Source of the DNA: an uncultured Cryomorphaceae bacterium | GTDB taxonomy: Bacteria > Bacteroidota > Bacteroidia > Flavobacteriales > Schleiferiaceae | Assembly (NCBI GenBank): GCA_937120475.1 | Contig: CAKZJV010000009.1 | Span: 186,001-250,000 of the forward strand | DNA length: 64,000 nucleotides | Direction: 5' to 3' | Position numbers and translations under genes: made by a program | In this document: positions 15,373-38,187 of the stretch, piece by piece | Numbering within the stretch: position 1 is the first letter of the stretch | Layout of the letters: each line of letters opens with the position of its first letter | Notes under the pieces: generated by a model | Databases searched by the model: none | Told to the model about the DNA's origin: nothing | Seen by the model: the letters and a program-made list of their open reading frames with translations, nothing else

Positions 15373-15408
15373 AAAAATTTCTGGTTTTGAGTTAATATGT
15401 GTATTGCT

Positions 15409-15416: not shown

Positions 15417-15422
15417 TAATAT

Positions 15423-15430
15423 TAATTTTG
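15423..15430 (+). promoter_or_regulatory. -7 promoter element of the second sensor kinase
   Basis: TAATTTTG matches TAnnTTTG. Transcription from here would include the candidate starts at 15475 (ATT) and 15498 (out-of-frame ATG). Confidence 0.55.
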
Positions 15431-15474
15431 AAAAGGTTTAACACTCCTTTTTTCTCCATAACCACTCCAATTGC

Positions 15475-17304: not shown

Positions 17305-17433
17305 GGCCTTTTTAAAAAGACCGGAGTTTAATAAAGCCTTTCTTACCTGGCTGTTGACGTAAATATTTAACTTAGACCTGATTTTCGGGAAACTTAAACT
17401 ATTTTATCCTTTTCAGTTAGATTACCTGCCTGC

Positions 17434-18162
17434 ATGAGCTCACAACTGGATGAAATTTTAATTGTTGAAGACGAACCACTGATCGCGGAGGATATTGCCG
17501 ATACCTTGAAAGAAGCGGGGTATGGTGTTGCGGGCATTGCACATAATGCCAATGATGCCATTAAAGTACTGCGCAATGGCTCGCCTAGCCTGGTAATGTT
17601 GGATATCCGTATTGACGGTGAGATAGATGGCTTAATGCTGGCCCGCATCATACGGGACCAGTTTGATGTGCCTTTTATTTTTCTCACCTCCTATACCGAT
17701 GAAAAAACGCTGGACCGCGTAAAGGATTTAAACCCCTATGGCTTTATTGTAAAACCCTTCGAGGATCGCGAGCTGACCTCTCATATTGAAATTGCGATTC
17801 ATCGTTTTAAGAAGGAAAGCAAGGACCTTGCTTCCATGGAAAGTGGTGACCCCGAATCGTTGTTTATTAAGGTGGGTAACAATTACCACCGTATCAACAC
17901 CGCTGAAATACTATACGCCCAGGCTTGGGATAACTACTGCTACGTATATCTGCAAAACCAAAAATATTTATTGCCGCATACCCTTAAATCGATAGGTGAA
18001 AAACTGGGCTACGAAAACTTTTTCAGGGTGCATAAAAGTTACCTGGTTAACCTCAACTGCATCAGCTCCATTATGGAAAGTGAGGTAATGGTGGATAATG
18101 TTGCGATACCCATTAGTAAGGGTTCCAAAACCAATTTACTAAGCCGTATCTCCTTTCTGTAA
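17434..18162 (+). CDS. LytTR-family response regulator, paralogue of the 9009 regulator
   Basis: A 242-residue regulator with a receiver domain (E12/D13, phospho-acceptor D57 in MLDIRIDG, K107 in IVKPFE) and a C-terminal LytTR DNA-binding domain with FFRVHKSYLVNL. It aligns without gaps in the receiver with the regulator at 9009. Unlike that pair it does not overlap its kinase; 129 bp of AT-rich sequence separates them and no clear TAnnTTTG was found there. It is the likely partner of the kinase at 15475. Convergent with the isomerase gene at 18206, sharing the terminator at 18165-18191. Confidence 0.93.
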   Translation: MSSQLDEILIVEDEPLIAEDIADTLKEAGYGVAGIAHNANDAIKVLRNGSPSLVMLDIRIDGEIDGLMLARIIRDQFDVPFIFLTSYTDEKTLDRVKDLNPYGFIVKPFEDRELTSHIEIAIHRFKKESKDLASMESGDPESLFIKVGNNYHRINTAEILYAQAWDNYCYVYLQNQKYLLPHTLKSIGEKLGYENFFRVHKSYLVNLNCISSIMESEVMVDNVAIPISKGSKTNLLSRISFL

Positions 18163-18164
18163 AA

Positions 18165-18191
18165 AACAAAATCCCCGCCAGTAGCGGGGAT
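18165..18191 (-). terminator. Intrinsic terminator of the minus-strand isomerase gene
   Basis: ATCCCCGC pairs with GCGGGGAT. On the minus strand the stem is followed by TTTTGTTTTTT. It lies between two convergent genes and may serve both. Confidence 0.85.
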
Positions 18192-18205
18192 TAACGTTAT
18201 ATGGG

Positions 18206-19141
18206 TTACCGGACTTTTACCAGGCTAACATCAAAAATGAGCCAGCTATCCGGTGGAATCACTCCTCCTCCCGCTCCGGCTGAGCCATAGGCTAATTGCG
18301 GTGGTATTACCAGGCGGGCTTCATCACCTTCCTGTAAAAGAGCTATACCTTCTTCCCAACCGGGAATTACCTGCCGTGCACCAATTTTAAAGCTGATGGG
18401 TTGATTTCTGCGTGAAGAATCATCAAACACCTCTCCGTTGAGGAGCGCACCCCGGTAGTGTACGGATACCTCACTACCTTTCCCGGCTTTTTTACCGGTT
18501 CCGTTTTTAGTTATTTTATAACGGATACCGCTTTCGGTACGACTAAAATCTGCGGTAAGCGTATCGAGTTCCTCGCGGGAGGCCTCTTCCTTTCTTTTCC
18601 GTTCCATGGCTTGTTCTTCCAGCCTGGCGTTGAATATTTCACGGGCATTAAAGTTTTCGGCATCATTGCCTACTCTTATAATTTCAACGGATTGCATGGT
18701 GTCTCCCTGCTCTATGCGATCCACCACATCCTGGCCACTTATTACCTTTCCGAAAACACTGTGTTTTCCATCCAGCCAGGGTGTTTCAACGTGGGTAATA
18801 AAAAACTGGCTGCCGTTGGTTCCCGGCCCGGCATTGGCCATCGAAAGCACACCCGGCCCACTGTGTTTAAGGGCGGGATGAAATTCATCCGGAAACTGGT
18901 AGCCAGGCCCTCCGGCCCCGGTACCACCGGGGTCGCCACCCTGTACCATAAAATTATCGATAACCCTGTGAAACTTAAGGCCATCGTAATACGGTTTTCC
19001 CGTTTCCCGGGCTTTATTATCAATATCACCTTCGGCCAAACCCACAAAATTGGCTACGGTGAGCGGTGTTTTTTCATGTTCCAGGCGCGCCATTATCTCT
19101 CCTTTCGGGGTGGAGATACGGGCATACATTCCTTCATCCAT
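18206..19141 (-). CDS. Cyclophilin-FKBP fusion peptidyl-prolyl isomerase (cytoplasmic form)
   Basis: A 311-residue dual immunophilin. Residues 1 to about 170 form a cyclophilin domain ([34 protein letters not shown]). Residues about 205-311 form an FKBP domain ([40 protein letters not shown]). A charged helical linker joins them. Both domains catalyse cis-trans proline isomerisation and assist folding. No signal peptide is present, unlike the lipoprotein relative next door at 19239, so a cytoplasmic role is likely. A terminator precedes it at 19172-19218, so it may be transcribed separately from the upstream isomerases. Confidence 0.93.
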
Positions 19142-19171
19142 AATGTATTGTATTTAAAATGATCGTTATAA

Positions 19172-19218
19172 AAAGCCGGGAGCTCAAAGTCTTTCTGACG
19201 TTAAACTCCCGGCTGTAA
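19172..19218 (-). terminator. Intrinsic terminator between the two cyclophilin-FKBP genes
   Basis: On the minus strand AGCCGGGAG and CTCCCGGCT form a 9-bp stem with a 23-nt loop, followed by five T. It lies just after the stop of the gene at 19239-20318. Confidence 0.75.
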
Positions 19219-19238
19219 GCTTTTTAGTTTTTTTGAGC

Positions 19239-20318
19239 TTAAGGCTGCTTGATTCCCACCATGGTTACCTCAAAAATCAACCATGAATTCGGAGGAATCA
19301 CCGGAGGTCTTCCACCTGCTCCATAGGCCAGGCTCGGAGGAATGATCAGTTTGTACTTATCGCCAACGTTCATCAATTGCATGGCGTCTTTCCAGCCCTG
19401 AATAACCTGGCCACCGGGGCCCATTTGTACGGGATAGGGTTCATAAGTCCTGCGGGGATCATACTTACCCCCTTCTTTTGCTTTTTCTTCGATAGACGAG
19501 TCAAACAAAGTTCCATCGGTCAGGTATCCGGCATAATCCATAAGTACCATTTGGCCGTCTTCAGGCTTAGGGCCATCTCCTTCTTCCAGCACTACGTAGT
19601 AAAGTCCGGATGGGGTAGATTGGGCACCTTCCTTGATTTTGGCCATTTTCTCTTCTTGTTCCTTCAGTTCAGCCTCTCTCTTTTTACGGGCCTCTTCCTG
19701 CTGCTTTTCAAAAACTTCAGCGGCCTTAAAATCTTTAGCCTCCTTACCCACGCGGATGATTTCGACCTTATTCATTACATCGTTTTGCTCAATGGCATCT
19801 ACCACACTTTGACCGCTCACTACCTTACCGAAAATGCTGTGCTTATTATCCAACCACGGAGTAGGTTTATGAGTAATGAAGAACTGGCTCCCGTTGGTTG
19901 CAGGGCCTGAGTTGGCCATAGAAAGTATTCCGGAAGTATCGTGTTTCAGGCTGGGGTCAAATTCATCGGCAAAAGAATACCCTGGGCCTCCGGTACCGTT
20001 ACCACTGGGGTCACCGCCCTGTATCATAAAATCAGCAATAACCCGGTGAAACTTAAGACCATCGTAATAAGGCTCGCCTTCGGCTTTAGCGTTGTTTTTA
20101 ATTTTTCCTTCTGCCAAGCCTACAAAGTTGGCCACGGTAAGCGGCACTTTGTCGTGGTGAAGTTTAAGGAGAATATCTCCCTTATTGGTATGGATGTTGG
20201 CATAAATACCATCCTTGAGCTTCACTTTCTCACCGTTTACCGAAATGGTATTCTGAGAGTTACAGCTACTCAAAATTCCGGCAAAAAGAAGTGCCGTCAT
20301 TAAGATGTTTTTCATCAT
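19239..20318 (-). CDS. Cyclophilin-FKBP fusion peptidyl-prolyl isomerase (lipoprotein form)
   Basis: A 359-residue dual immunophilin with an N-terminal lipoprotein signal (hydrophobic stretch then LSSC, cysteine near residue 19), so it should be anchored in the periplasm. The cyclophilin domain spans about 35-210 ([24 protein letters not shown]) and the FKBP domain about 240-356 ([39 protein letters not shown]). A K/E-rich helix links the two. It is clearly related to the cytoplasmic fusion downstream, suggesting duplication followed by gain or loss of the export signal. It starts 2 bp after the gldI-like gene stop, so the two are one operon. Likely role: folding of exported envelope proteins. 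Confidence 0.93.
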
Positions 20319-20320
20319 GT

Positions 20321-20881
20321 TTAACTTTTAGATTTAGTGATTTTCAAAACTTTCAATTCGTAAACCAATGCTGTTTTGGGCGGCACCTTACTTTGATCAC
20401 CGGCCACCCCAAAAGCAAGGTGCGAAGGTAAAATAAATAGCCCCTCATCACCAAGGCCCAGCAATTTAAGGCTTTCGTGCAAACCGATTTCCGCATCTTC
20501 ACGGTCTATCTTCAGGCTCCTCGGCTTGCCAGGTTCAGAGGTGTATAAAAGATTTCCATTAAGTAAATAGATGGAATAATCAAAAACCACGTCATCACCA
20601 CTTTCCACCTGCAATTCAGCCGATGAATCGCGGCTTACCTTGTAAAACAGGCCGGTACCGCTGCGCTTTACTTCCAGCTTACGGTCTTCAATATAAGACT
20701 CGATGGAGGCCCTCTCCTTTTCCAAAAAATCCCTTTGGGCCTGTATGCGATCCTCTGCCTGCTCCTGCAATGGTGTTGGGCGGGCCGGATTCTCCTCTTG
20801 TCCGGCACATTGGCACCCTTGCAGCAACAGGGTGAGCAGCAACAGGGGGATCATTAGTGTTTCAGGCTTTTTCAAGTGCAT
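20321..20881 (-). CDS. gldI: FKBP-type isomerase lipoprotein, GldI-like
   Basis: A 186-residue lipoprotein (LLLQGC lipobox, cysteine near residue 23) with one C-terminal FKBP-type domain (about 70-183: [36 protein letters not shown]). In gliding Flavobacteriia GldI is a lipoprotein FKBP needed for motility and T9SS function. The match here rests on architecture and on the place next to the DHH phosphoesterase and another isomerase. Non-gliding relatives also carry it. It overlaps the upstream nrnA-like gene by 20 bp. A second in-frame ATG at 20854 would drop the positively charged N-terminus and is less likely. Confidence 0.75.
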
Positions 20882-21881
20882 CCCGGTAATCTACTATTAT
20901 TTCTTTAAAGTGGTTTACGGTGGCTTCGAGACTTTCATCGGAAGCTCCACCCGCTGCGTTTTTATGTCCACCTCCGTTAAAGTGAGCCCGCGCTAAAAGG
21001 TTCACGTCAAAATCACCTTTCGAACGAAATGATATCTTAACCAGTCCGTCCTTTTCAACCATAAAAACACTGAGCTTAACACCCAGCATGGATAGGCCGT
21101 AGTTTACAAAACCTTCCGTATCGCCCTTTTTATATTGATTTTCGCTAAGGTCACGCGCACTAAGTTTAATAATAGCTACGGGAAGGTTTTCCATTACTTC
21201 CATAGCGTTTAATGCGGTGCTGAGCAGTTTTAAACGGAAAGGGGTATTGATATCGTACACCCGTGAAGCCATGGCATTGGGCTCCACTCCTTTTTCCAGT
21301 AAGGCTCCCGCCACCTGATGCGTGTATAGGGTGGTACTGTTAAACCGGAAGCTTCCGGTATCGGTCATAATACCGGTATATAAACATTCGGCTTCATGTT
21401 GGCCGATATATCCCTCCCAGTTTAAACCGGCCAGAATATGGTACAGTAACTCACAAGTAGAGGACATGGCCGTATCGGAAAAAGTTACGGTGGCAAAATC
21501 CTGGGGCTGCTGATGGTGATCAATCATAATTTTTTGCGCAGCACTTTCTGCCAGAAGGCTTTCCATCCCTCCGCTACGTGAAAAAGCATTGTAATCCAGG
21601 TGTATAATAAGATCGGCCCCGTTCACCAGGGCGGTGGCTTCTTCCTCCTGACCTTCAAAGGTCACCACACGCTCTGCTCCTACCATCCACCTTAAAAAGT
21701 CAGGGTAAGGGTTGGGTATTACCGCGTTAACCGGTTTATTTAACTTCTTCAACACTCCGTATAATCCCATGGCACTACCCATGGCATCGCCATCGGGGTT
21801 TATATGATTGGTAATAACAATGGATCGGGAGGTTTCCAGAAGCTGCCGGGCCTTTTCAATAAGGGCACTTTCAATTTTCAT
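20862..21881 (-). CDS. nrnA: DHH-family phosphoesterase (NrnA-like nanoRNase/pAp phosphatase)
   Basis: A 339-residue cytoplasmic enzyme. It has an N-terminal DHH domain (NHINPDGDAMGS near 26-37, then MIDHHQQP near 120) and a C-terminal DHHA1 domain with the glycine-rich FNGGGHKNAAGG near 305. NrnA-type proteins degrade short oligoribonucleotides and dephosphorylate pAp using Mn2+. The length is normal. A near-consensus TATCTTTA on the minus strand (21886-21893) ends 4 nt before the ATG, suggesting a leaderless transcript. It is first in an operon with the GldI-like and lipoprotein isomerase genes and divergent from the MFS gene. Confidence 0.92.
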   Translation of the reverse strand: MKIESALIEKARQLLETSRSIVITNHINPDGDAMGSAMGLYGVLKKLNKPVNAVIPNPYPDFLRWMVGAERVVTFEGQEEEATALVNGADLIIHLDYNAFSRSGGMESLLAESAAQKIMIDHHQQPQDFATVTFSDTAMSSTCELLYHILAGLNWEGYIGQHEAECLYTGIMTDTGSFRFNSTTLYTHQVAGALLEKGVEPNAMASRVYDINTPFRLKLLSTALNAMEVMENLPVAIIKLSARDLSENQYKKGDTEGFVNYGLSMLGVKLSVFMVEKDGLVKISFRSKGDFDVNLLARAHFNGGGHKNAAGGASDESLEATVNHFKEIIVDYRDALEKA

Positions 21882-21950
21882 GCGCTAAAGATACATTGCC
21901 TGTTTTGTCCGGTAAAAATCACTTTTAAGATTATAGTATCTTCGGTGCCC

Positions 21951-23246
21951 ATGGAAAAGAAAGTGCAAAACGCCTGGGCCTTTTACGATTGGGCCAACTC
22001 CGTTTATTCACTGGTCATCAGTACTGCGATATTTCCCATTTACTTCAATAGCGTTACCTCGGTAAACGATCAGCCCAATTATTACGACTTTTTGGGCACC
22101 AGCATACCCAATACCACCCTGTATAGTTATTCCCTTTCTTTTTCATTTATCCTGGTGGCCCTTATTTCGCCCCTTTTATCGGGCATTGCCGACCATACCG
22201 GAAAAAAGAAACGCTTTCTTCAATTTTTCTGTTACCTCGGTTCGCTATCCTGCGCCTCACTCTATTTTTTTGATGGCAACAATATTTGGTTTGGGCTTAC
22301 CATGAGCGTATTCGCCAGTGTGGGTTTTTGGGGGAGCCTGGTTTTTTACAACGCTTTTTTGCCGGAAGTAGCCCCGCCTGAAAAGCAAGACCAACTTTCA
22401 GCCAAGGGTTTTTCCCTGGGTTATATCGGTGCCGCCATCTTGCTCATTTTTAACCTGGCTATGATTCAAATGCCGGAAACCTTCGGTTTTGCCGGAGCAG
22501 GCGAGGCCAGCCGCTTTAGCTTTTTATTGGTGGGCCTCTGGTGGGCCGGATTTGCGCAAGTCACCTTCAGGAGGTTACCGGACAATGTATATCAACGCAT
22601 TTCAGATGAACGCTATATCTGGAAAGGTTTTGTGGAGTTAAGACAGGTTTGGCGGGAATTGAAAGAGCAACTATCACTCAGGCGTTTCCTGTACTCTTTT
22701 TTCTTTTTCAGCATAGGTGTACAAACCGTTATTCTGCTGGCCGGACTTTTTGGAGATGTGGAACTTGGCCTCGACTCCTCCAGGCTGATCGCCACTATAC
22801 TTATCATTCAATTTGTGGGCATTGGAGGGTCGTATTTATTTTCCTTCCTGTCCTCACGCTTCGGGAATTTACAATCGCTCAAAATTTGCATCCTCATTTG
22901 GACTTTGATCTGTTTTGGAGCATACACCCTTACCAAGGACGATCCTTCTGTTGAACTGAAGTTCTACATTTTGGGAGGGCTGGTGGGCCTGGTGATGGGC
23001 GGCATTCAGGCCATAAGCAGAAGTACCTACAGTAAGCTGTTGCCCTCTGAAACCCATAGTCATGCCAGCTACTTCAGTTTTTATGATGTTTCTGAAAAAG
23101 TAGCCATTGTACTGGGAACAGCCATCTATGGATTACTCATAGACCTTACCGGCAGCATGAAGATGAGCGTACTGGCCCTGAGCTTGTTTTTTGTGATCGG
23201 TTTTCTACTGATTCTTTGGGTGCCTAAAACACGCTTTGTCCGCTAA
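21951..23246 (+). CDS. MFS transporter, UMF1 family
   Basis: A 431-residue polytopic inner membrane protein with about twelve hydrophobic segments and the N-terminal signature AWAFYDWANSVYSLVIST typical of the UMF1/Atg22-like branch of the major facilitator superfamily. The motif DHTGKKKR near 84-91 corresponds to the MFS loop 2-3 motif A. The substrate is unknown. An upstream in-frame start at 21804 would read into the divergent gene. The ATG at 21951 begins the conserved N-terminus and sits just after a near-consensus promoter TATCTTCG (21933-21940). The stop overlaps the convergent OB-fold gene by 4 bp. Confidence 0.9.
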   Translation: MEKKVQNAWAFYDWANSVYSLVISTAIFPIYFNSVTSVNDQPNYYDFLGTSIPNTTLYSYSLSFSFILVALISPLLSGIADHTGKKKRFLQFFCYLGSLSCASLYFFDGNNIWFGLTMSVFASVGFWGSLVFYNAFLPEVAPPEKQDQLSAKGFSLGYIGAAILLIFNLAMIQMPETFGFAGAGEASRFSFLLVGLWWAGFAQVTFRRLPDNVYQRISDERYIWKGFVELRQVWRELKEQLSLRRFLYSFFFFSIGVQTVILLAGLFGDVELGLDSSRLIATILIIQFVGIGGSYLFSFLSSRFGNLQSLKICILIWTLICFGAYTLTKDDPSVELKFYILGGLVGLVMGGIQAISRSTYSKLLPSETHSHASYFSFYDVSEKVAIVLGTAIYGLLIDLTGSMKMSVLALSLFFVIGFLLILWVPKTRFVR

Positions 23247-23623
23247 TCGATGATTTGCGCATTGTCGATTCTTACCTCACCGAAAAGCTCATCGTAACCC
23301 ACTACCCTACCTTTAACGGTAACCTGGTCACCGGCTTTTATTGAAGCCGATGAATACTGGCCATTGCAAAAAATTCCACCTTCCAGCTTAATGTGGGTTT
23401 CATCCACCTCTTCTACCTTACCACTAACCTGCACTACCTGATCGAGGTAAACTTCATTAGCACCATCCTGTCCATCGGCATAGGCCTTACTTAATGCGGT
23501 AGAGGATAATTCGTATTTCGCTTTTTCGCCCTGTATATCGCGATGCGGTTTAAACCACAGGTAGGTAGCGTAGGCACCTCCTAAAAATACCACGATCACG
23601 ATAACCCATACTAATTTTTTCAT
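23243..23623 (-). CDS. Membrane-anchored OB-fold protein (tRNA_anti-like)
   Basis: A 126-residue protein with one N-terminal transmembrane helix (about 4-23) followed by a short linker and an OB-fold-like beta domain (about 58-124: VVQVSGKVEEVDETHIKLEG, QVTVKGRVVGYDELFGEVRID). This matches the small tRNA_anti-like OB-fold proteins of Bacteroidota that lie outside the cytoplasm. Ligand and role are unknown. It converges on the UMF1 transporter with a 4-bp overlap and is divergent from the cytochrome-like lipoprotein gene. Confidence 0.75.
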   Translation of the reverse strand: MKKLVWVIVIVVFLGGAYATYLWFKPHRDIQGEKAKYELSSTALSKAYADGQDGANEVYLDQVVQVSGKVEEVDETHIKLEGGIFCNGQYSSASIKAGDQVTVKGRVVGYDELFGEVRIDNAQIID

Positions 23624-23685
23624 GTTATAACGTTAAGTTTGTTACGAATTTAGAATATTACCGCAGAAACTCATAAGTTAGTTGA

Positions 23686-24375
23686 ATGTTGAAGAACTCT
23701 CTGTCCTTGTTTTTTCTCTTAAGCTTGGTGTTTGTTGCCTGCAAGCACGAACCCTTTCCGGCTCCGCCTCCGGGCATGCCAAATGATACCACTAAAGGAA
23801 AACCTTGTGATCCGGATACGGTGTATTACCGTAAATACATTCAACCCATTCTCAATACCAATTGTGCCTATTCAGGTTGCCATGATGCAGCCACCGCCAG
23901 CAAAGATGTAAATCTTTCGGATTACGAAGCCGTTATCAGCACAGCGGATGTAAGGCCTTTTAATGCGGATGGCAGTGATATTTATGAAGTGTTAATAGAA
24001 ACGGACTTGGACAAACGGATGCCATTAGGGCAAAACCAACTCCCTCAAAATCAAATTGACTTAATCCGTAAATGGATAAACCAGGGGGCACTTAACCTGA
24101 GCTGTGATGAATGTGATACCACCAACCTTACCTATGCCAATGGCATTAAAACGATATTCGAAAATAATTGTGTAAGCTGTCATGGCAGCACAAACCCTTC
24201 CGCAAATCTCAGCCTGACTACCTACGAGCAGGTACGGGATGCTATACTGAATACCAACCTACAGGCACGTATTAATGCTGAGCCAGGGGTACCCCTTATG
24301 CCGCAGGGCGGTAAAATGCCCCAATGCAACATTGATAAAATTGAAACTTGGGTAGCCAATGGTTTCCCTCAATAA
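23686..24375 (+). CDS. c-type-cytochrome-domain lipoprotein with two heme-like motifs
   Basis: A 229-residue lipoprotein (VFVAC lipobox, cysteine near 19) with two similar halves. Each begins with a Y-x(4)-I-x-x-N-C stretch and carries a heme-attachment-like motif: CAYSGCH (a CX4CH spacing) near residue 63 and a canonical CVSCH near 163, with later RMPLGQ and LMPQGG methionines that could act as axial ligands. It resembles the planctomycete-type cytochrome c domains frequent in Bacteroidota lipoproteins. It precedes a single-domain relative, a YceI protein and a DUF5777 protein. Heme binding is inferred from motif only. Confidence 0.8.
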   Translation: MLKNSLSLFFLLSLVFVACKHEPFPAPPPGMPNDTTKGKPCDPDTVYYRKYIQPILNTNCAYSGCHDAATASKDVNLSDYEAVISTADVRPFNADGSDIYEVLIETDLDKRMPLGQNQLPQNQIDLIRKWINQGALNLSCDECDTTNLTYANGIKTIFENNCVSCHGSTNPSANLSLTTYEQVRDAILNTNLQARINAEPGVPLMPQGGKMPQCNIDKIETWVANGFPQ

Positions 24376-24382
24376 CAAAATT

Positions 24383-24775
24383 ATGATCCGGTTTAAACTA
24401 CCTATATTATTGACCTTTGCGGTTTCCATGGTGCTACTTAGCTCGTGTTACTATGACAATAAAGAAGAGCTTTATCAGAACCTGAATACCAATTGTGAGA
24501 CGGCCAACGTAAGTTTTGGCACTACCATTGAACCTATAATAACCGCGAACTGCGCCATTCCCGGTTGCCATATTGGTCCGGCCAATGCCGGTGGCCTCGA
24601 CCTGAGTACCTATCAAGGTGTAAAATCCAGTGCCGATGCTACGGGTAACGGCTCCCTGGTAGGTCGAATCACCGCTTCATCCGGTAGTTTGATGCCCCAG
24701 GGTGGTCCCAGGCTTCCGGAGTGCGACATTCAGAAAATACAACAATGGGTAGCCGATGGTGCCCCTAACAATTAA
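24383..24775 (+). CDS. Single-domain cytochrome-c-like lipoprotein
   Basis: A 130-residue lipoprotein (VLLSSC lipobox, cysteine near 22). One cytochrome-like domain carries CAIPGCH (CX4CH) near residue 59 and SLMPQGG near 108, closely resembling the first half of the preceding protein. The gene starts 7 bp after that gene's stop; an alternative start at 24359 would overlap it and lacks a good signal sequence. The YceI gene follows after 13 bp. Probably a periplasm-facing electron-transfer or heme-binding component; no partner enzyme is visible nearby. Confidence 0.78.
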   Translation: MIRFKLPILLTFAVSMVLLSSCYYDNKEELYQNLNTNCETANVSFGTTIEPIITANCAIPGCHIGPANAGGLDLSTYQGVKSSADATGNGSLVGRITASSGSLMPQGGPRLPECDIQKIQQWVADGAPNN

Positions 24776-24788
24776 ATAACAAACAGCT

Positions 24789-25337
24789 ATGAAACTTAGA
24801 TTTTTGCTTATTGCCCTTGCAGGTCTTTTGGCCTCCGGCAGCTTTGCCCAAAAACTTTCTACCCGTAACGGGTACATCCGTTTTTTCTCCGAAACCCCGG
24901 TCGAAAATATCGAGGCGGAGAACCGGCAGGTTTCCAGTGTTATTGATATGGCTAACGGAAGTTTCGCCTTCCTGGTGCAGATCAAGGCTTTTCAGTTTGA
25001 AAAGGCCCTTATGCAGGAACACTTTAATGAAAACTACATGGAGAGTGGCGAATATCCCAACGCTAAATTTCAGGGAACTATCGAAGGTTATGAAGAAGTG
25101 AACCTGAATAAGGACGGTGAGTATAAAGTGAACTTTTCCGGAACCATGACCATACACGGTACTTCCAGGGAAATAAATGAATCTGCCACTTTAGTGGTTC
25201 AAGGTGATAAAATAAACCTGAAATCAAAATTTCAGCTTAAGCCTGAAGATTACGATGTTAAGATTCCCGCCTCAAAAAGGGATAATATTTCGGAAACACT
25301 GGACATTACCGTAAAAATGGACTATGACAAAAAATAA
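24789..25337 (+). CDS. YceI-family periplasmic protein
   Basis: A 182-residue exported protein: signal peptide 1-20 (ending GSFAQ), then a YceI-like lipocalin-fold domain, with VSSVIDMANGSFAFLVQIK near 43-61 and TMTIHGTSREI near 120-130. YceI proteins bind polyisoprenoids or other amphiphiles in the periplasm. It is in an operon with the two cytochrome-like lipoproteins and the DUF5777 gene, whose start codon lies inside its last codons (14-bp overlap). The grouping of YceI, heme-like lipoproteins and DUF5777 suggests one envelope redox or lipid-related function, which is inference. Confidence 0.88.
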   Translation: MKLRFLLIALAGLLASGSFAQKLSTRNGYIRFFSETPVENIEAENRQVSSVIDMANGSFAFLVQIKAFQFEKALMQEHFNENYMESGEYPNAKFQGTIEGYEEVNLNKDGEYKVNFSGTMTIHGTSREINESATLVVQGDKINLKSKFQLKPEDYDVKIPASKRDNISETLDITVKMDYDKK

Positions 25338-26271
25338 CAATCTCAAAAAGGAGGGCTTCCTGGCCCTCCTTTTTTGTTTGGTTTGGGGTTCAGCCCTTCA
25401 GGCGCAAGACGACCTGATGGATTTGCTGGAAGAAGAACAAGGCCCCACTACCGAGTATGCTTTTGCCACCTTTAAAGGAACCAAGGTGGTTAACCTGCAA
25501 TCGCCTGAATTACCGGGCAAGGGAGTTTTGCAGTACACCATTCTCCACCGTTTCGGAGCTTTTAATGACGATTACTTTTATAATTTCCTGGGCCTGGATA
25601 ATGCACAGGTCCGTTTAACGCTGGATTACTCTGTAACGGATTGGCTCAACTTCGGCTTGGGCCATAGTAGTGTCAACAAAATTTACGATGGCTTTGTAAA
25701 GTACCGCTTAATCCGCCAAAGTAAGGGTGCCAAAACCTTCCCCTTCACCATTACGGGGTTTTCAGGTCTTTATTACAGTGCCCTACGCTTTCCGGAGGGC
25801 CAGCCTTTTAACGAATCGGACCGGCTAAGCTATGTGCATGAATTAGTGGTGGCCCGTAAGTTCAGCCAGAAATTTTCGGCAGAAATTGTTCCAACGGTTA
25901 CGCATTTTAACCTGGTGGATAGTGCCGATTTTTCCAATGACATTTTCTCCATTGGTGTAGCGGCCCGCTACAAGTTCACCCGTATGCATTCCTTCAATGT
26001 GGAATACGTCTATCAATTGAATCCCAACTCATTTGTAAACCCCGAAAACGGGGAATTTCAGAATTACCCCAATGCACTTTCGATTGGAGTGGATATTGAA
26101 ACGGGGGGACACGTTTTTCAGCTCTTTTTCACCAACTCCAGGGGGGTTGCAGAACCGTACGTTTTTTCAAGAACCCCGGGAAGCTGGCTGGATGGTGATA
26201 TCCATTTCGGCTTTAATATTTCCCGTGTTTTTACCATTCAGCGACCCAAAGTACCGGAGGAGGAAGGGTAG
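25324..26271 (+). CDS. DUF5777-family outer membrane beta-barrel-like protein
   Basis: A 315-residue exported protein of the DUF5777 type. A signal peptide (1-24, ending ALQAQ) is followed by an acidic stretch and a beta-rich body (TTEYAFATFKGTKVVNLQSP, LQYTILHRFG, then a C-terminal FGFNISRVF strand ending in F), consistent with an outer membrane barrel. The ATG at 25324 overlaps the YceI gene. Its signal-peptide codons contain a perfect terminator hairpin (25345-25376), so translation from this start would compete with termination. No later ATG restores a complete signal peptide. Confidence 0.83.
   Translation: MTKNNNLKKEGFLALLFCLVWGSALQAQDDLMDLLEEEQGPTTEYAFATFKGTKVVNLQSPELPGKGVLQYTILHRFGAFNDDYFYNFLGLDNAQVRLTLDYSVTDWLNFGLGHSSVNKIYDGFVKYRLIRQSKGAKTFPFTITGFSGLYYSALRFPEGQPFNESDRLSYVHELVVARKFSQKFSAEIVPTVTHFNLVDSADFSNDIFSIGVAARYKFTRMHSFNVEYVYQLNPNSFVNPENGEFQNYPNALSIGVDIETGGHVFQLFFTNSRGVAEPYVFSRTPGSWLDGDIHFGFNISRVFTIQRPKVPEEEG
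25345..25376 (+). terminator. Terminator hairpin embedded in the DUF5777 coding sequence
   Basis: AAAAAGGAGGGC (25345-25356) pairs perfectly with GCCCTCCTTTTT (25363-25374) over a 6-nt loop, and the T-run continues to 25375. It begins 8 nt after the YceI stop codon but lies within codons 8-18 of the DUF5777 gene. It looks like a real intrinsic terminator or a translation-coupled attenuator. Confidence 0.8.
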
Positions 26272-26279
26272 AAAAAACC

Positions 26280-27149
26280 TTAGTACACCACTATTTTGCG
26301 GCTAGCCTCAACCCCGTTACTGCGGACGAGCGCGATCAAAATACCCTTGGGAAGGTTTTCAAGGGTCACCCGGTTCTGCCGGGCTTGGAAACTTTCCTTA
26401 CGGAGCAACTGTCCGCCCAAGTTGTAAAAACTCAACTGTGCTTCAGGCCGGTAGGTTTCCGGTAGGCTGATATCTAAAAAGCGGCCTCTTTGTACCATCG
26501 ATGGTTTTTCCACTTCAAATTCCTCAACACCGATTGGTGAGCCTTGTCCCATAAAAATGGAAGAATCAGGAATAGATTGATAAGCAAAATCCTTTATAGT
26601 GACCGAACGTAAATCGGCTGCCACATCCAAACGAATCCAACCGTAAAAAGTACCGTTGGTACTATCAGAGGTAGGAGCAGTAAAACGCAAGCCCAAAAAG
26701 CCATCGGTTACCCCGTTGATGGTATCGGCCCATTGGCTATTGGGGTAAGGCGTATCGATGGCAAAAGCCAGGTAGCCGATGTTGCGCCCCGGGTTAATGC
26801 CCTGAAATGTATCCGTAGGCATAATAGTATCTCCCAGGTAAAGACGGGCCGCATAATTATAATTGGCCTGGGTTTTTCCTACTACCTGGTTGAATACGCT
26901 GTTTCCTGAGCGGATCAGTACTCCTGTAAAATCAAAACTGGAAGAATCCACTAGTTGAACGATTCGAAAGTCGATTACACCGGCCGTGTCCTGGTCAATG
27001 TTGAAGTCGTAAAAATCACCGTTATTACTTAAGGTAGTATCTTCAATATCGGTCCAGATGACCTGCCCCGGAAGGGCTTGTGCTCCCAACAGGGCCGAGG
27101 CCATTCCGGTGTATTTCAATAATCTCTTTTCGAGTTTTTCTTTTTCCAT
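26280..27149 (-). CDS. Secreted protein with T9SS type A sorting domain
   Basis: A 289-residue exported protein. A charged N-terminus (MEKEKLEKRLLKY) precedes a hydrophobic signal region ending near residue 29. The body is a predicted all-beta domain of unknown function (DFNIDQDTAGVIDFRIVQL). The last 70 residues resemble a type IX sorting domain (FLDISLPETYRPEAQLSFYN, then LENLPKGILIALV and a basic end KIVVY). It is probably exported across the outer membrane. It is convergent with DUF5777 (8 bp apart) and follows the fusion gene on the same strand after 36 bp. No catalytic motif is visible. Confidence 0.75.
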   Translation of the reverse strand: MEKEKLEKRLLKYTGMASALLGAQALPGQVIWTDIEDTTLSNNGDFYDFNIDQDTAGVIDFRIVQLVDSSSFDFTGVLIRSGNSVFNQVVGKTQANYNYAARLYLGDTIMPTDTFQGINPGRNIGYLAFAIDTPYPNSQWADTINGVTDGFLGLRFTAPTSDSTNGTFYGWIRLDVAADLRSVTIKDFAYQSIPDSSIFMGQGSPIGVEEFEVEKPSMVQRGRFLDISLPETYRPEAQLSFYNLGGQLLRKESFQARQNRVTLENLPKGILIALVRSNGVEASRKIVVY

Positions 27150-27185
27150 AAATGTGAATTCCGCTTCAAAAATCCTAAAAACAAT

Positions 27186-29651
27186 CTACATCCCAAACAT
27201 ATTGCGGTAAAGGCTGGGATCAACCTCTTTAACTGCCCTATCCACGTTCATATTGTAACCGGTAAAAGCGGCAAGCTGTTCCATTACTGCCCTGGGCTTT
27301 TTAAGGCAATCGTGATATTGAACATTTAATACCTGCATTTGGGGCTGCTGCTTTAGCCAGGTAGTTATAAGCTCTTCTTCTCTTTGCAAATTAGCGGCAT
27401 GTTGGAAAGGAAAGGTTTGTTGCAGCTTTTCACGGTTCTCGCCCTGCATTACCTTTTGGGAAATTACCACTTCGGTCAAAGGCCTTTTCATATAAATAAC
27501 CTTGTAATTTTCCGATGCAGGCAAATACCTCAGCAAGGGAGAAACCACTTTTAAAACTTTTCCCCGGGCCTCCTGCACCCAATTGTTTTCCCATCCCAAC
27601 TGCTTAACAGCCTCATACTCCAGGTAGCCATTGGGGTTGTGGTGGTCTTGGGTTCGCTTACCATCGGTTAAAACCGCTATGCCGGCCGCCTGTAGCATTT
27701 GCATCATCAGGCTGGTTCCGCTGCGCGGGAGTCCGGAAACTATAAGAATAGGTCCGGTGTCTATTTGTTTTCCCTCTAGAGTTTGTAATAGCGTGCGGGC
27801 CTTTTCATGACCGGGAGCTTGTTGCAGGGCCAACTTTAAGGCTAATATCGCCTCCTTCTTTTTCCCCAGCTTATTCAGGGAAAGCCCCATATAGTAATGG
27901 GCATTGGGCTGGTAAAAAAGTAATTCAAGGCTACGATCAAACGTAAGCAAGGCTTCCTCATAGTTTTCAGTTTCCACCAAACAACGCCCGCTGGCCGTTA
28001 AGGCCATTGCATTTTGAGGATCAAGTGCCAGCGATTTTTGGAAGTACCCGAGTGCCTCATCTACCTGGCCGCTCAATAACAGCGCCTTGCCCGCTTCATT
28101 AAATAATTGCACGGATTGCGCTCCCGCCTTTTCCAAACTACGGAACCTGACCAGCGCTTCACTTACCTTACCCGTGTAGAGATACAGCATAGCTTGCATA
28201 AAGATAAAGTGCGGGTGTTGCTCATTTTCGGCTTCAAGGCTTTCCAGGTGGTCTTGTAAAGCCTGATGTTGCCCTTCTTTCAGCAGCAGGTCGGCCAATA
28301 AAATTGCGGAACGACCGTCTGCATATTGCCGGTAAAGTTCACGAGCCTTTTCCAGGGCTTCTGCAATACGGCCTCCATCCAGCAGGCTCAGGCAAAGGTT
28401 GTATTGCAATTCCAGTTCAGCCGCTCTTAAAGAGTTCTTTTCCGGTAGTTGTATATAGCCCATTTCTTCCAGCTCTTCCAAAAAACGACTATCGGCCGTA
28501 GGAGATGAACTAAGGAACTCAGCCGGGTTAAACATCCCTTCCCAGCTAGGGATATAACTATTTTCAGACGCTTTCTTCCAAAGATCATGACGCACACTTC
28601 CTTCCATGTCTTCTCCAACGGGCAGGTCAAAAAGGTGTAAGATAGTGGGTGCAACATCCAACAGTGAGGCTCCGTAAATAGGCTCCCCGGATTTAAAGGA
28701 AGGGCCCTGGGCCACCATTACACCGTATTTGCGATGTTCCAATGCCGGTGCTGCGGCTACTTCCGGTAGTTGCAAGGAACGAAGGGAGCCGGATTGAAAA
28801 CCATGATCCGAAACCAGCATGATGTGGCACTCTTCACCCGCCAAATGGAGCAGTCGCTCCAACATCATATCGTGGTAGCGGTAAGCTGCTTCCACTACAC
28901 CGCTATATCTATTGTAGGCTTCCTCATCCACCCCTTCCTGCCTGGGCGGATGGTATTTCATGGCTAAATGACAAAAGTGATCCAGGGCTTCATAATACAC
29001 AGCGGTTACGTCCCAATCCGTATTTTCAAGGCACCAGGTAGCTACATTATGAACCGAACTGCAATGCGCCAGAATTCGCATTAGTGATTTTACCACCTTA
29101 TCCTTTTCGGGATCTAGCTGAGCCGCCTTGGGTATAAAGGGTTCTATATGAGCCAGGGTAAGCTCGGCCGGGTGAACCCGTAAGGGCTGGAATGTATCCT
29201 CCAGGTTTTCAGGATAAATACAGGCTTTGGTTAGCGGCCATTCTTCTCCCCGTGCGGGAGCTTTTTCATGAAACTGGTTGGATACACAAACCCCGTTAAG
29301 CTTTTCCGCAGGGTGTGACGGCCACCAATTGATTACGTTGGTTTTTAAACCGGCCTCATTCAATATATTCCAAAAAGTGACCGATTTACGGGAGGTAGCC
29401 TGAACAGGATGTACTTCCCCCCGCAGTGAATCCACCTCCACAAAACCATGAATACCGTGGTCATACGCTCTTTTTGAGGTGGCTATGGAGGTCCAGAGCA
29501 TGGGGCTCAGGGCCGGGGAAAGTGTGGCCAGGTTACCACGCATACCGGAGTTTATCAAGGCCTGCAAAGCCGGTAGTTTTCCCTTCTTTAAAAGAGGATC
29601 AATGACCTGCCAATCCGCAGCATCCCAACCAATCAGCAACAGCTTCTTCAT
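27186..29651 (-). CDS. Phosphodiesterase/alkaline-phosphatase-fold, TPR and sulfotransferase fusion
   Basis: An 821-residue cytoplasmic-looking protein with three modules. Residues 1 to about 360 are an alkaline phosphatase superfamily phosphodiesterase domain (LIGWDAADW with metal-ligand D10, nucleophile T54 in [14 protein letters not shown] near 230, SDHGF near 284). Residues about 400-620 are TPR repeats ([31 protein letters not shown]). Residues about 632-821 are a P-loop sulfotransferase-like domain with GLPRSGTS near 637 and [13 protein letters not shown] near 725. The start is placed at the ATG of MKKLLLIG; an upstream in-frame codon adds only three residues. No signal peptide. Substrates are unknown. 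Divergent from the MacB-like permease. Confidence 0.85.
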
Positions 29652-29716
29652 ATTCCACAAAAATAGCAGCTCTTTTTAGTGTGAGAATTGATAATTTTAA
29701 CCACCTCAACAGAAGT

Positions 29717-30961
29717 ATGAAGAACGGAGTATTCCTGGAAAATATTCGCATAGCACTGCAGTCCATTCGTGGGCAAATGCTGAGAACAGTACTCACGGGG
29801 CTTATTATAGCGATCGGTATTATGGCCCTGGTAGGTATATTGACCTCCATTGATATTATTAAAACTTCGCTAAGCGGACAGTTTGCTTTGATGGGTGCTA
29901 ATACTTTTACCATACGCAACCGCCAGGCCGATATACAAATAGGGCGCAACGGAAAAAGGCCCGAGGTATTTGCCGCTATTTCGTACCAGGAAGCACTGGA
30001 ATTCAAAGAGAAGTTTAAGGATAAGCCCGGTACGGTAAGCGTATCCTATATCGCCTCGGGTATTGCCGAGGTTACCCACGAAAAAGAGAAAACCAATCCC
30101 AACATTGCGGTTTGGGCAGCCGATGAAAACTATCTGAAAGCCGGGGGATATGAGCTGGCTACGGGAAGAAATATCACTATCAGCGATCTGGAAGAGGCTA
30201 AAGCGGTAGCGCTTATAGGCCAGGAAGTGAAGAAAAAACTTTTTGATAAGAAGGAACCTCTGGGGCAGAATATTGAAATAGGCGGCATACGCTACCGGGT
30301 TATCGGCACCCTGAAGGAAAAAGGTAGTGCCATGGGTTTTGGTGGCGACAAGTCCATTTTTATACCCATCACCAAAGCTCGTTCGGCTTTCAGCCGGCCC
30401 AGCCAAAGCTTTTCCATTAACGTAGTAGCCAGCGGCAGTGAAGAAATGGAGGAATCGGTTTCAGAGGCCACGGCCGTTATGCGAAAGGTACGCAGGCTAA
30501 AGCCCAAGGAAACCTCCAACTTCGGTATTATAAAAAGCGATAGCCTTTCAGAAACCCTGCTGGAGCAGTTGCGCTATGTTACGCTTGCAGCCATACTTAT
30601 AGGAGCTATTACGCTTTTTGGGGCCGCCATTGCCCTGATGAATATTATGCTGGTATCGGTTACCGAACGTACACGGGAGATCGGTATTCGAAAAGCGGTG
30701 GGTGCCAAATCCATCGTTATCAGAAGGCAGTTCCTTACCGAAGCGGTTATTATTTGCCTGATGGGTGGGGTAACCGGTATTATATTAGGGATACTGATCG
30801 GCAACCTTACTTCTGCGCTTTTCGATAGTAGCTTTGTAGTTCCCTGGATGTGGATATTCTGGTCGATCGTAATCTGCTTTTTTACCGGGCTTATTTCGGG
30901 CTTGTACCCAGCCATAAAAGCTTCGGCACTGGACCCGATAGAATCGCTGCGCTACGAATAA
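29717..30961 (+). CDS. ABC transporter permease, MacB/FtsX type
   Basis: A 414-residue inner membrane protein with an N-terminal transmembrane helix (about 20-42), a large periplasmic MacB-PCD domain (about 50-275) and a C-terminal FtsX domain with three helices ([14 protein letters not shown] near 325, [11 protein letters not shown], then [21 protein letters not shown] at the end). MacB-type permeases act by mechanotransmission with a separate ATPase, and none is encoded beside it. The start ATG at 29717 begins the conserved N-terminus; a GTG at 29681 would extend it toward the divergent fusion gene. The bidirectional terminator at 31003-31035 follows. Confidence 0.92.
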
Positions 30962-31002
30962 AAAAACTTGCCTGAAAGCAGCCAGGTAATGATGACCCAA
31001 CA

Positions 31003-31035
31003 AAAAAGCCCTTCGCAATGCGAAGGGCTTTTGTT
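31003..31035. terminator. Bidirectional terminator between the permease and rplI
   Basis: AAAAGCCCTTCGC pairs with GCGAAGGGCTTTT over a 3-nt loop, with A-rich and T-rich flanks that serve both strands. Confidence 0.88.
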
Positions 31036-31055
31036 TATCCTGCGGATATAACTTC

Positions 31056-31514
31056 TTACATCTGTCCGGACTCACCAACCACCTCGAAACCAAAATCAAT
31101 GGTAACTTCGCGGTGCAGGCGAATTTGAGCGGTATAAGGGCCTGTAGCCTTAATAGAACCACCCTGAATCTGGATGTACTTACGATCAATGTGATGACCG
31201 GCCTTTGACAACTCATTGGCCAGGTCGGCATTATTGATCGATCCGAACAGTTTATTTCCTTTACCTACTTTGGCTACTATACGAACTTCCAGTTCATTAA
31301 GAGCTTCAGCAGTTTTCTTGGCATCTTCAATTTCCTTAGCTTCTTTGTGCTTACGTTGCTTTAGGTTTTCTTCCAGCATTTTTCTAGCACCGGGAGTAGC
31401 CAGGGTAGCAAATCCGTAAGGTATAAGGTAGTTACGACCGTAACCATTCTTTACGGTTACGATGTCATCCTTATAGCCGAGGTTTTCCACATCTTGTTTT
31501 AAAATCAATTCCAT
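31056..31514 (-). CDS. rplI: 50S ribosomal protein bL9
   Basis: Ribosomal protein bL9 (152 aa) with the N-terminal 23S rRNA-binding domain (LKQDVENLGYKDDIVTVKNG, then YGRNYLIPYGFA) and a long helix to a C-terminal domain. Last gene of rpsF-rpsR-rplI, 11 bp after rpsR. Normal length and order for Bacteroidota. Confidence 0.97.
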   Translation of the reverse strand: MELILKQDVENLGYKDDIVTVKNGYGRNYLIPYGFATLATPGARKMLEENLKQRKHKEAKEIEDAKKTAEALNELEVRIVAKVGKGNKLFGSINNADLANELSKAGHHIDRKYIQIQGGSIKATGPYTAQIRLHREVTIDFGFEVVGESGQM

Positions 31515-31525
31515 AGTAACTCCGC

Positions 31526-31813
31526 TTATTTAAGGTTATCAGTAACGTAAGGCATCAAAGCCAGGTGACGGGCACGCTTAATAGCAGTAGATACTTTACG
31601 CTGGTACTTCAAAGAAGTTCCGGTAATTCTACGTGGAAGGATCTTACCCTGCTCGTTTACAAACTGGGTAAGGAAGTTGGTATCTTTATAATCTACATAT
31701 TTAAGGCCGTAACGCTTGAAACGGTCGTACTTTTCCCTCTTTCCAGTGTCAATACTGAGAGGTTGCAGATATCTGATTTCGGACTGATTGGAGCCGGTTT
31801 CTAATTCACTCAT
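31526..31813 (-). CDS. rpsR: 30S ribosomal protein bS18
   Basis: Ribosomal protein bS18 (95 aa) with the signature [19 protein letters not shown] and [19 protein letters not shown], which contacts bS6 and 16S rRNA in the small-subunit platform. The N-terminal extension of about 25 residues is usual for the phylum. It lies 13 bp after rpsF. Confidence 0.97.
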
Positions 31814-31826
31814 GGTTCAAAAATTT

Positions 31827-32162
31827 TTAGGCGTTTTGCATTTTTTTCCTGCGCTTGGCGGCAAACTCTACATGGTGTTTGTCCATTCTTACGGTCAGAA
31901 AACGCATAATGCGCTCGTCACGTTTCATTTCCACTTCCATGTTTTCAATTACCTCACCAGGTGCCTGAAATTCCATTAAATGATAAAAACCACTCCTTTT
32001 GTGCTGGATAGGGTAAGCCAGCTTGCGCAGCCCCCAGTTTTCTTCGGCCAGCACCTTGCCATCCTTGCTTTCAAGAAGGCCTTTGAATTTTTCTACCGTT
32101 TCCCTTACCTGTTCATCAGATAAGACGGGATTCATAATGAAAACGGTTTCGTACTGATTCAT
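31827..32162 (-). CDS. rpsF: 30S ribosomal protein bS6
   Basis: Ribosomal protein bS6 (111 aa; [38 protein letters not shown]). First gene of the rpsF-rpsR-rplI operon. The promoter at 32214-32221 gives a leader of about 45 nt. I could not recognise the known S6:S18-binding leader element there. Confidence 0.97.
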
Positions 32163-32213
32163 TAGTTAATAATTTAGTTTCTAATACCTTATTGGTTCCC
32201 AAAAAAGGGAGGG

Positions 32214-32221
32214 CAAAAGTA
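32214..32221 (-). promoter_or_regulatory. -7 promoter element of the rpsF operon
   Basis: On the minus strand this is TACTTTTG, 51 nt upstream of the rpsF ATG. Confidence 0.6.
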
Positions 32222-32255
32222 AACTAATCTATTGGATTAGGCAAGAACCTTAAAA

Positions 32256-33170
32256 CTAGTACTTCACCACTTTAAAGCGGTTGATATCCTTATCCGGAGT
32301 ATAGGTTTCCAAAATGTAGGTGCCGGGGCTCAGGCCCGAGGTGTTTATATGCACCTCATCCGAACTGGTAATATGGATTTCACGTACGGCCCTGCCACTC
32401 ATATCCAACAGTCTCAATTCATGGTTTTCACCATCGCCCATGCTAATGGTAATATGGTCTTTAAACGGGTTGGGAAAGTAGCTTACGTTTACCGGAGTTT
32501 CCCCAAGTGAAATATTGGACGAACTAATGATCACCAGCTTAGGCCTCCGGTTGGGGTCAGCATGATCACTGGAGGCGTAAACTACCCTGCGAAAATGATT
32601 GGTGTCGGCCAGAGAAATCATCATGCCGTGGCTATTGGCCGGATCATTGACCATATCCTGAACCAGTTGGGTGACATCAATCACCTGATCCTGGTATTTA
32701 CTGGTTGTGGCAGCTATAGTTACTTCATTTTGTGTGCTTACCGCAGGGCGGGTATTCCAGGTAACCGTTTGTTCATTCCAAGGGCTGGTAATGCGCTGGA
32801 GTAAACAGGCGTTAGATCCTGAGAGATTGGAATGACCATCATCTCCGCTGGTAGGGTTCCCATATAAGTAAAGAGTAGCCGAAACAATTTGAGTTTGAGC
32901 GTTGAAACTCGAAAGGTCAAAGTCCATAAGACTTTTCCGGGCACCCTCTACTCCGCTCCAGGTCCATTCGTTAGCCTGGTAATCCCGTATATTTCCAAAG
33001 TTGGCATTATTTACATCCCCGTGCGAAGTGCCGGTTGAAGACAGCCTCCAGATCATGGCATCTTTACCAGAGGTCGCGTCCGGTTGTAATACCAGCGTAT
33101 CCTGTGCCTTGGTTGAAAAAAATAAAAATTGTGCAAACAGAAGAGTACCGAGAATAGATTTAGGTCTCAT
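32256..33170 (-). CDS. DNRLRE-domain secreted protein with T9SS type A sorting domain
   Basis: A 304-residue secreted protein. A signal peptide (about 1-22, ending STKAQ) is followed by a DNRLRE-type beta-sandwich (about 25-215: the SATLYLYGN strand, SPWNEQTVTWNTRP, ISLADTNHFRRVVYAS), a fold used for surface adhesion or carbohydrate-associated proteins. A T9SS C-terminal domain follows (VSYFPNPFKDHITISM, then LSPGTYILETYT). The ATG at 33170 is chosen because it begins the signal peptide; an in-frame codon at 33194 adds eight residues. Its promoter at 33200-33207 lies just upstream. Divergent from the transketolase operon. Confidence 0.86.
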   Translation of the reverse strand: MRPKSILGTLLFAQFLFFSTKAQDTLVLQPDATSGKDAMIWRLSSTGTSHGDVNNANFGNIRDYQANEWTWSGVEGARKSLMDFDLSSFNAQTQIVSATLYLYGNPTSGDDGHSNLSGSNACLLQRITSPWNEQTVTWNTRPAVSTQNEVTIAATTSKYQDQVIDVTQLVQDMVNDPANSHGMMISLADTNHFRRVVYASSDHADPNRRPKLVIISSSNISLGETPVNVSYFPNPFKDHITISMGDGENHELRLLDMSGRAVREIHITSSDEVHINTSGLSPGTYILETYTPDKDINRFKVVKY

Positions 33171-33199
33171 TAGGATTTGATTTAAAATTAACAATGGAA

Positions 33200-33207
33200 C
33201 AAAGGTA
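33200..33207 (-). promoter_or_regulatory. -7 promoter element of the DNRLRE gene
   Basis: On the minus strand this is TACCTTTG, 29 nt upstream of the chosen ATG at 33170. Confidence 0.6.
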
Positions 33208-33269
33208 TAGGATTTCCTTAACGGCTACTTTTTATCAACAAAAGCTTTCATAAGCCGTACCTTAAATTC

Positions 33270-33277
33270 TACTTTTG
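33270..33277 (+). promoter_or_regulatory. -7 promoter element of the split transketolase operon
   Basis: TACTTTTG matches TAnnTTTG and lies 23 nt before the ATG at 33301. Confidence 0.6.
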
Positions 33278-33300
33278 CAGATCATTGATTTTAAAACACT

Positions 33301-34149: not shown

Positions 34150-34158
34150 ACTTTATAG

Positions 34159-38179: not shown

Positions 38180-38187
38180 CTTGATTG

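Follow-up and report, generated by a model that had tools for sequence, protein, structure and literature searches.

The codons for the signal peptide of a DUF5777 gene were found to spell at the same time a perfect, T-tailed hairpin, which is probably a real but partial intrinsic terminator placed inside an operon, at the junction with the overlapping YceI gene upstream. The locus lies in a 64,000-nt stretch of a Flavobacteriales genome whose nearest named relatives are metagenome records of Owenweeksia. We refer to the whole stretch as the window and use its numbering, and the features discussed are collected in Table 1.

Table 1. Features at the YceI/DUF5777 junction and at two other junctions with the same layout (window positions unless another locus is given)
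Feature	Position	Strand	Evidence or detail
Cytochrome c-like gene (PSCyt1), upstream in the same run	23686..24375	+	PF07635 E 7.4e-08
Small secreted or lipoprotein-like gene, same run, without Pfam hit	24359..24775	+	
YceI-domain protein gene, upstream member of the pair, 182 aa	24789..25337	+	PF04264 E 2e-12
YceI N-terminal signal peptide	within 24789..25337	+	judged by eye
DUF5777 beta-barrel gene, 315 aa	25324..26271	+	PF19089 E 2.1e-87
DUF5777 signal-peptide codons, MTKNNNLKKEGFLALLFCLVWGSALQAQ	25324..25407	+	translation
Terminator-like hairpin	25345..25374	+	5′ arm 25345-25356, loop 25357-25362, 3′ arm 25363-25374
T tract TTTTTTGTTT, closes and follows the stem	25370..25379	+	sequence
LRR-protein gene after PhoX/T9SS-sorted gene	L214 11711-12700, G000:C7:20001-40000	-	tailed hairpin -24.8 kcal/mol
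PepSY_TM/flavodoxin reductase gene after DUF2271	L227 3696-5903, G025:C1:1450001-1470000	-	hairpin -17.9 kcal/mol

YceI and DUF5777 follow a cytochrome c-like gene and a gene for a small exported protein in a same-strand run whose last base is 26271. The cytochrome c-like gene, two genes upstream of YceI, contains a CXXCH motif, and the run may be tied to haem or electron transfer. The DUF5777 signal peptide was called by eye from its charge, hydrophobic core and AxAQ-like end. As the first-pass annotation had claimed, the DUF5777 start lies inside the YceI gene: the ATG is at 25324, the YceI stop is TAA at 25335-25337 and the overlap amounts to 14 nt including the stop. DUF5777 matches were found in 81 of the 88 genomes of the family (f1 in our genome set, which we take to be the Schleiferiaceae). 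A YceI match stands upstream on the same strand at 67 of 71 distinct loci, or 72 of 76 if duplicates are included, the exceptions being L016, which is at a contig end, L019, L074 and L075.

The stem consists of 12 Watson-Crick pairs, six of them G-C, around a 6-nt loop (5′ arm AAAAAGGAGGGC, 3′ arm GCCCTCCTTTTT), and RNAfold adds one U-G pair. A T run at 25370-25375 is followed by GTTTGG, and the RNA 3′ end is presumed to fall at about 25375-25379. The perfect 12-bp stem with its T run near the YceI stop had already been noticed on first reading and is indeed there, in the early DUF5777 codons; its start is 7 nt past the stop, and it spans nt 22-51, which are codons 8-17 and not 8-18. Like intrinsic terminators in general, it combines a GC-containing stem of at least 5-6 bp and a small loop (dG -20.4 to -21) with a T tract right after the stem on the coding strand. 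The folding energy of the 43-nt stretch is -21.0 kcal/mol (z = -4.4), which none of 200 shuffles equals; longer folding contexts give z -2.6 (90 nt, 3 of 200 shuffles) and z -2.2 (131 nt, 5 of 200). Searches for Rfam families gave no match at the gathering score in window positions 15000-35000.

The next in-frame ATG, GTG or TTG of DUF5777 is a TTG at 25378, past the stem, so the signal peptide cannot be obtained without translating the stem. Moreover, as the DUF5777 start is upstream of the hairpin, every RNA for full-length DUF5777 has read through it. On this ground we rejected the view that the hairpin serves only to end a YceI unit, DUF5777 having a separate promoter downstream of it. A terminator of the minus strand is disfavoured, with the minus-strand T run being the shorter one in each of the ten loci that have the hairpin (see below). 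A protein-binding palindrome is disfavoured as well, because the letters change among these loci while the pairing persists.

To obtain a null expectation, the signal-peptide codons were redrawn synonymously 1000 times per locus, using own and pooled codon usage and keeping the first six codons fixed, and scored by the best single hairpin of at most 36 nt followed by a T-rich tail. At the window locus (L002), no recoding reached the observed -20.4 kcal/mol with protein, codon usage and T-tail rule held fixed. This null is likely conservative, because the protein sequence, too, may have been adapted to the stem.

The genomic background was surveyed in 344 kb of the window genome (G000), which contain 13 distinct perfect stems of at least 11 bp with a T tail. 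Twelve of them are intergenic or at gene ends, in some cases reaching into the last 3-17 nt of a gene, and these include one in an over-extended ORF directly behind tRNA-His; of the 13, none but the DUF5777 stem lies clearly within a true coding region. A perfect 11-bp terminator occupies window positions 38188-38213, right behind the tRNA-His gene (38106-38180), where the listed ORF from 38064/38103 is over-extended and the glycosyltransferase-like gene probably starts at 38252. At window positions 31004-31032, between convergent genes, a terminator with a perfect stem of 13 bp has T runs on either strand and is typical of the gene-end terminators in this genome. A stem nearly the same as that of the DUF5777 hairpin was found between convergent genes at L089 (7652-7679). 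With its -20.4 kcal/mol, the DUF5777 hairpin takes 8th place among all 268 gene ends that were scanned in the 344 kb, and -9 kcal/mol or better was reached by 22 of 86 gene ends that face an opposite gene and by 25 of 182 co-directional ones, the DUF5777 hairpin included.

Regarding signal-peptide-like genes, which we chose by a rule of our own and not with a predictor, tailed hairpins at or below -9 kcal/mol were rare. They occurred in 2 of 104 genes in the 344 kb (DUF5777 and one at -10.7), in none of 29 in 120 kb of genome G001 (its DUF5777 gene was not covered), in 3 of 55 in a further 203 kb of the window genome (-12.1, -9.7 and -9.6) and in 3 of 109 in 400 kb of genome G025 (-25.2, -17.9 and -9.3). 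Co-directional gene pairs that overlap or stand at most 20 nt apart had a hairpin in 2 of 92 cases in the first sample of G000 and G001, one of them being DUF5777, in 2 of 58 in the second sample of G000 and in 2 of 98 in G025.

The family was represented by 29 loci with a readable 5′ end (L002-L031 minus the truncated L027). Ten of these have a tailed hairpin at or below -9 kcal/mol, a cut-off set after a first look at the data, against 0.74 expected from the synonymous null (P = 7e-11); when the near kin L003 and L018 are dropped, 8 of 27 remain against 0.57 (P = 7e-9). The energies (kcal/mol) are -20.4 for L002, -20.0 for L003, -15.9 for L023, -15.5 for L008, -13.7 for L018, -11.8 for L017, -11.6 for L007, -11.0 for L005, -10.2 for L015 and -9.6 for L028, with synonymous p from <0.001 to 0.043. 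In all ten the stem ends at nt 45-54 of DUF5777 and starts 7-26 nt past the YceI stop, as measured by hand. The hairpin is absent from the other 19 loci, among them L004, which is from a species of the same genus, and six of the seven g6 loci. Two of the loci counted as absent, L011 (-11.8) and L021 (-11.7), showed long interrupted stems beyond the 36-nt limit in a wider first scan that allowed hairpins up to 45 nt.

A further 40 family loci, mostly from small genomes (70 of the 81 matching genomes were covered in all), gave no hairpin at the core position, and three of them reach -9 kcal/mol near the cleavage site. Hairpins at or below -9 whose end is at or after the cleavage site were not counted (L037 with its duplicate L078, L045, L055 and L107). 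When scored without the tail, L037, L045 and L055 have synonymous p of 0.40, 0.47 and 0.67, and P 0.05 is reached by eight of the ten hairpin loci, L005 (0.09) and L015 (0.13) being the other two. Placed on the DUF5777 tree, the hairpin label requires 8 changes and is unclustered (194 of 500 shuffles are as low). Together with the patchy occurrence this indicates that the hairpin is lineage-labile and not a fixed part of the operon, and that it seems to have been gained and lost often. The richness of the T tail over synonymous chance is borderline in the ten loci (Fisher P = 0.051; 0.005 for L002 alone); Phe and Leu codons explain most of the tail, so the signal of selection lies in the stem.

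We searched for compensatory changes in an alignment of five loci (L002, L003, L008, L007 and L005), picked after seeing a seven-locus alignment, A1. The 12-pair helix has 88.3% of its cells paired in the five loci, and two-sided changes affect four pairs and six cells. In 500 shuffles, neither this percentage nor the covariation score nor the count of changed cells was ever reached, and the count of changed pairs was reached six times; there was no excess of further pair types in this alignment (433 of 500 shuffles were as high). Sliding the register by 1-3 lowered the percentage of cells paired, the two-sided changes and the covariation score, but not the pair types. A1 itself gave 79.8% paired, five pairs with two-sided changes and a covariation score that one shuffle in 500 reached; the unslid register was outscored by slides of -1, +1 and +3. 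It is weaker because MAFFT misaligns L017 and L018 by one base, and the five-locus alignment is the cleaner test. A comparison of L003 with L008 shows two G-C/A-T swaps in which both partners differ; codons of both arms are affected, with the residue exchanges Gly to Arg, Gly to Ser and, twice, Leu to Phe. The test on these two loci was not significant (138 of 500 shuffles), two loci being too few.

That some relatives have the same hairpin in different letters suggests purpose-driven retention. The first-pass annotation had proposed that the stretch does double duty, coding for a signal peptide and forming a terminator-like stem, and had named relatives that keep the signal peptide without the stem as evidence against its reading. 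The double duty is confirmed and appears to be under selection, given the ten orthologues against 0.74 expected and the two-sided changes that keep the pairs in several of them. Relatives with the signal peptide but not the stem do exist, namely 19 of the 29 loci with L004 among them, and in part speak against that reading.

Outside the family, eight further families of the order contributed 60 loci, of which only the A/T-rich L155 passes -9 kcal/mol within the signal peptide. L185 and L186, also from other families, have terminators further upstream (-14.4 and -13.5). Named GTDB genomes provided 45 loci, three of them on the same contigs as L003, L007 and L008. A Salibacteraceae record (L119) has a signal-peptide hairpin of its own at -15.0 kcal/mol, and none of 1000 recodings was as good. 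Strong terminators of -16 to -19 kcal/mol were seen in the intergenic YceI-DUF5777 spacer at L113, L117 and L127 of other Bacteroidota; their number does not exceed what wide spacers show as background (21 of 76).

Since RNA for the whole DUF5777 needs read-through, we favour a partial internal terminator, and the sequence makes termination at the hairpin probable. Its placement within the DUF5777 signal-peptide codons would follow from the overlap with YceI, which leaves no spacer. On a transcript that YceI and DUF5777 presumably share, some RNA polymerases would stop at about 25375-25379 and leave a YceI message with a stable hairpin at its 3′ end, and the remaining ones would read on, so that the DUF5777 barrel is made. 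The likely outcome would be more of the soluble periplasmic YceI protein than of the outer-membrane DUF5777. A ribosome finishing YceI 7 nt upstream may lower termination. The terminated RNA would offer no stop codon to ribosomes that start on DUF5777, and these may need ribosome rescue.

On the role of translation, the first-pass annotation proposed an attenuator kept open by ribosomes that reinitiate at the DUF5777 start. In a modified form, which refines the partial terminator and is not its opposite, a YceI ribosome close behind the polymerase would cover the 5′ arm and allow read-through, and lagging YceI translation would let the polymerase stop. We consider such gating plausible, though less likely than not. 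The hairpin starts close to the YceI stop, both here and in the other hairpin loci, and in E. coli the terminator tR2 was repressed nearly completely a few bp past a stop codon and was maximally active beyond ~27-30 nt (PMC4824070, available part). However, the overlap of the genes may by itself dictate the short distance, and repression at middle distances depends on the sequence, with an efficiency of ~0.8 at 18 bp and ~0.12 at 17 bp in different series of the same study. Moreover, we found nothing on coupling in Bacteroidota, and the main text of PMC13323073 contains neither Bacteroid nor Flavobacter. Translation that started 30 bp upstream of tR2 cut its efficiency by only ~10% (PMC4824070, available part). 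The starts of the ten hairpins are all within the tR2 range, which makes ribosomes finishing YceI the likelier sensor than reinitiating ones, if the E. coli data carry over.

It is unlikely that the hairpin acts on RNA stability or processing, protecting the 3′ end of a YceI fragment or being cut while the polymerase does not stop. A stable stem adjoining the stop codon could act so, and stem-loop processing and differential decay in operons are the topics of PMC10311766 and PMC5927463, as far as their available parts go. However, tail-less structure is not in excess where a tailed hairpin is absent (4 of 53 loci at P ≤0.05). The at least 8 T in the 14-nt tail of the ten loci also argue against it, if weakly, because the loci were selected for the tail and the protein explains most of it. 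An effect on translation, with the hairpin slowing ribosomes in the signal peptide or making DUF5777 initiation depend on YceI ribosomes, appears even less likely: the genes overlap and the hairpin begins at codon 8, near the edge of an initiating ribosome, but the start codon is outside the stem and only one other of the 104 signal-peptide-like genes reaches -9 kcal/mol (-10.7). Coincidence through the complementarity of n-region Lys codons (AAA/AAG) to core Leu and Phe codons (CTT/TTT) is very improbable: the tendency is real, with 5% of L002 recodings reaching -9 kcal/mol, but it does not account for the observed strength, the number of orthologues or the two-sided changes.

Returning to the partial internal terminator, we inquired for other junctions with the same layout. 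Sense-strand tailed hairpins of -17 kcal/mol or lower were sought inside ORFs in 1.07 Mb of G000, G001 and G025. Four fell into the first 100 nt of genes (83 kb) versus three in gene bodies (746 kb), or three versus two (binomial P = 0.009) without the over-extended ORF at window 38103 and L239, which was excluded for its ambiguous start, with an in-frame ATG after its hairpin. An antisense scan gave two in the first 100 nt (L239 and L083, near-palindromes), two in gene bodies and four near gene ends. The enrichment at gene starts thus depends on a small number of cases.

The three gene-start cases, which are unrelated to each other, are DUF5777, the LRR-protein gene behind a PhoX-domain gene (L214) and the PepSY_TM/flavodoxin reductase gene behind DUF2271 (L227). 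In L214 the hairpin covers nt 64-94, codons 22-32 of the LRR gene, whose presumed start is the only in-frame ATG upstream of the hairpin. The second Owenweeksia species (L258) has a hairpin of different sequence in the same LRR codons with no indel (-32.9 in the wider scan), and all 13 pairs are kept between the two loci, two being changed on both sides and three on one side. In L227 the hairpin is in the N-terminal codons at nt 17-50. Of the PepSY relatives, L243 from another genus has a nearly letter-identical stem, L241 a weakened one (-7.7) and L242 none. None of 1000 synonymous recodings matched the LRR or the PepSY hairpin, yet 32% of the LRR recodings reach -9 kcal/mol. In all three pairs the first product is exported according to Pfam descriptions, and the second begins with a signal peptide or a transmembrane segment.

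Among known systems, we compared the junction with the ABC importer operons of cellulolytic Clostridia, in which internal intrinsic terminators yield more of the soluble exported binding protein than of its membrane partner (PMC9045158, available part, also for what follows on these operons). Both have a single stem-loop with a U tract after the gene of a soluble exported protein and before that of a membrane protein, and both have a single hairpin, which here, too, appears to have no antiterminator. The clostridial hairpins are in long intergenic regions and their termination was measured, whereas ours is inside the downstream coding sequence of overlapping genes and is recognised from its sequence. 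Gene order and overlap fit one unit of a soluble exported protein and a membrane partner, with the single transcript, the solubility and the partnership being presumed.

An attenuator of the pyrBI type likewise places its terminator near enough to a stop codon for ribosomes to interfere, as the distances here would allow by the tR2 measurements. It uses the frame of a short leader peptide, in contrast to a whole YceI gene with a Pfam domain, and its hairpin does not also code for a signal peptide. The tR2 constructs resemble our junction in having a terminator a few nt past a stop, once in the first 100 bp of the frame that follows (PMC4824070, available part), but they are synthetic and in E. 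coli, whereas the hairpin studied here is natural, from Bacteroidota and kept by compensation in some relatives. E. coli also has RNA 3′ ends inside coding sequences; those of ORF-internal sRNAs are ascribed to RNase processing and in one case (aceK int) to intrinsic termination, other ends in coding sequences are ascribed to Rho, and the available part of the paper describes no signal-peptide-coded hairpins at junctions (PMC7815308). Nearer to our genome, partial termination was inferred for some transcripts of Flavobacterium psychrophilum (PMC9723704, available part). We call the hairpin, as read from its sequence, a variant of the internal terminator or attenuator, dual-coded in secretory N-terminal codons. 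No precedent for a terminator coded within a signal peptide was found among titles and opening lines of abstracts in the open-access literature, and DUF5777 did not occur among the matches listed there for YceI/DUF5777.

For the family as a whole (Owenweeksia and its neighbours), we suggest, tentatively and with more doubt than confidence, that partial, translation-gated terminators sit repeatedly in the secretory N-terminal codons at packed junctions. They would act as a valve that limits the ratio of the second protein, exported or membrane-bound, and stays open only as long as translation of the first gene keeps pace. Signal peptides would then be favoured as the site, since they tolerate sequence change and their Phe and Leu codons provide the T tract at no cost. 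At the DUF5777 junction, a single piece of DNA would obey two codes, for a signal peptide and for a terminator, and the RNA code would be kept by compensatory changes that alter even the protein. Terminator finders that search only after genes would miss such elements. Starting 7 nt past the upstream stop, the hairpin could serve as a natural reporter for transcription-translation coupling in Bacteroidota, as it would be expected to be nearly silent if the two processes are coupled and strong if the polymerase runs ahead.
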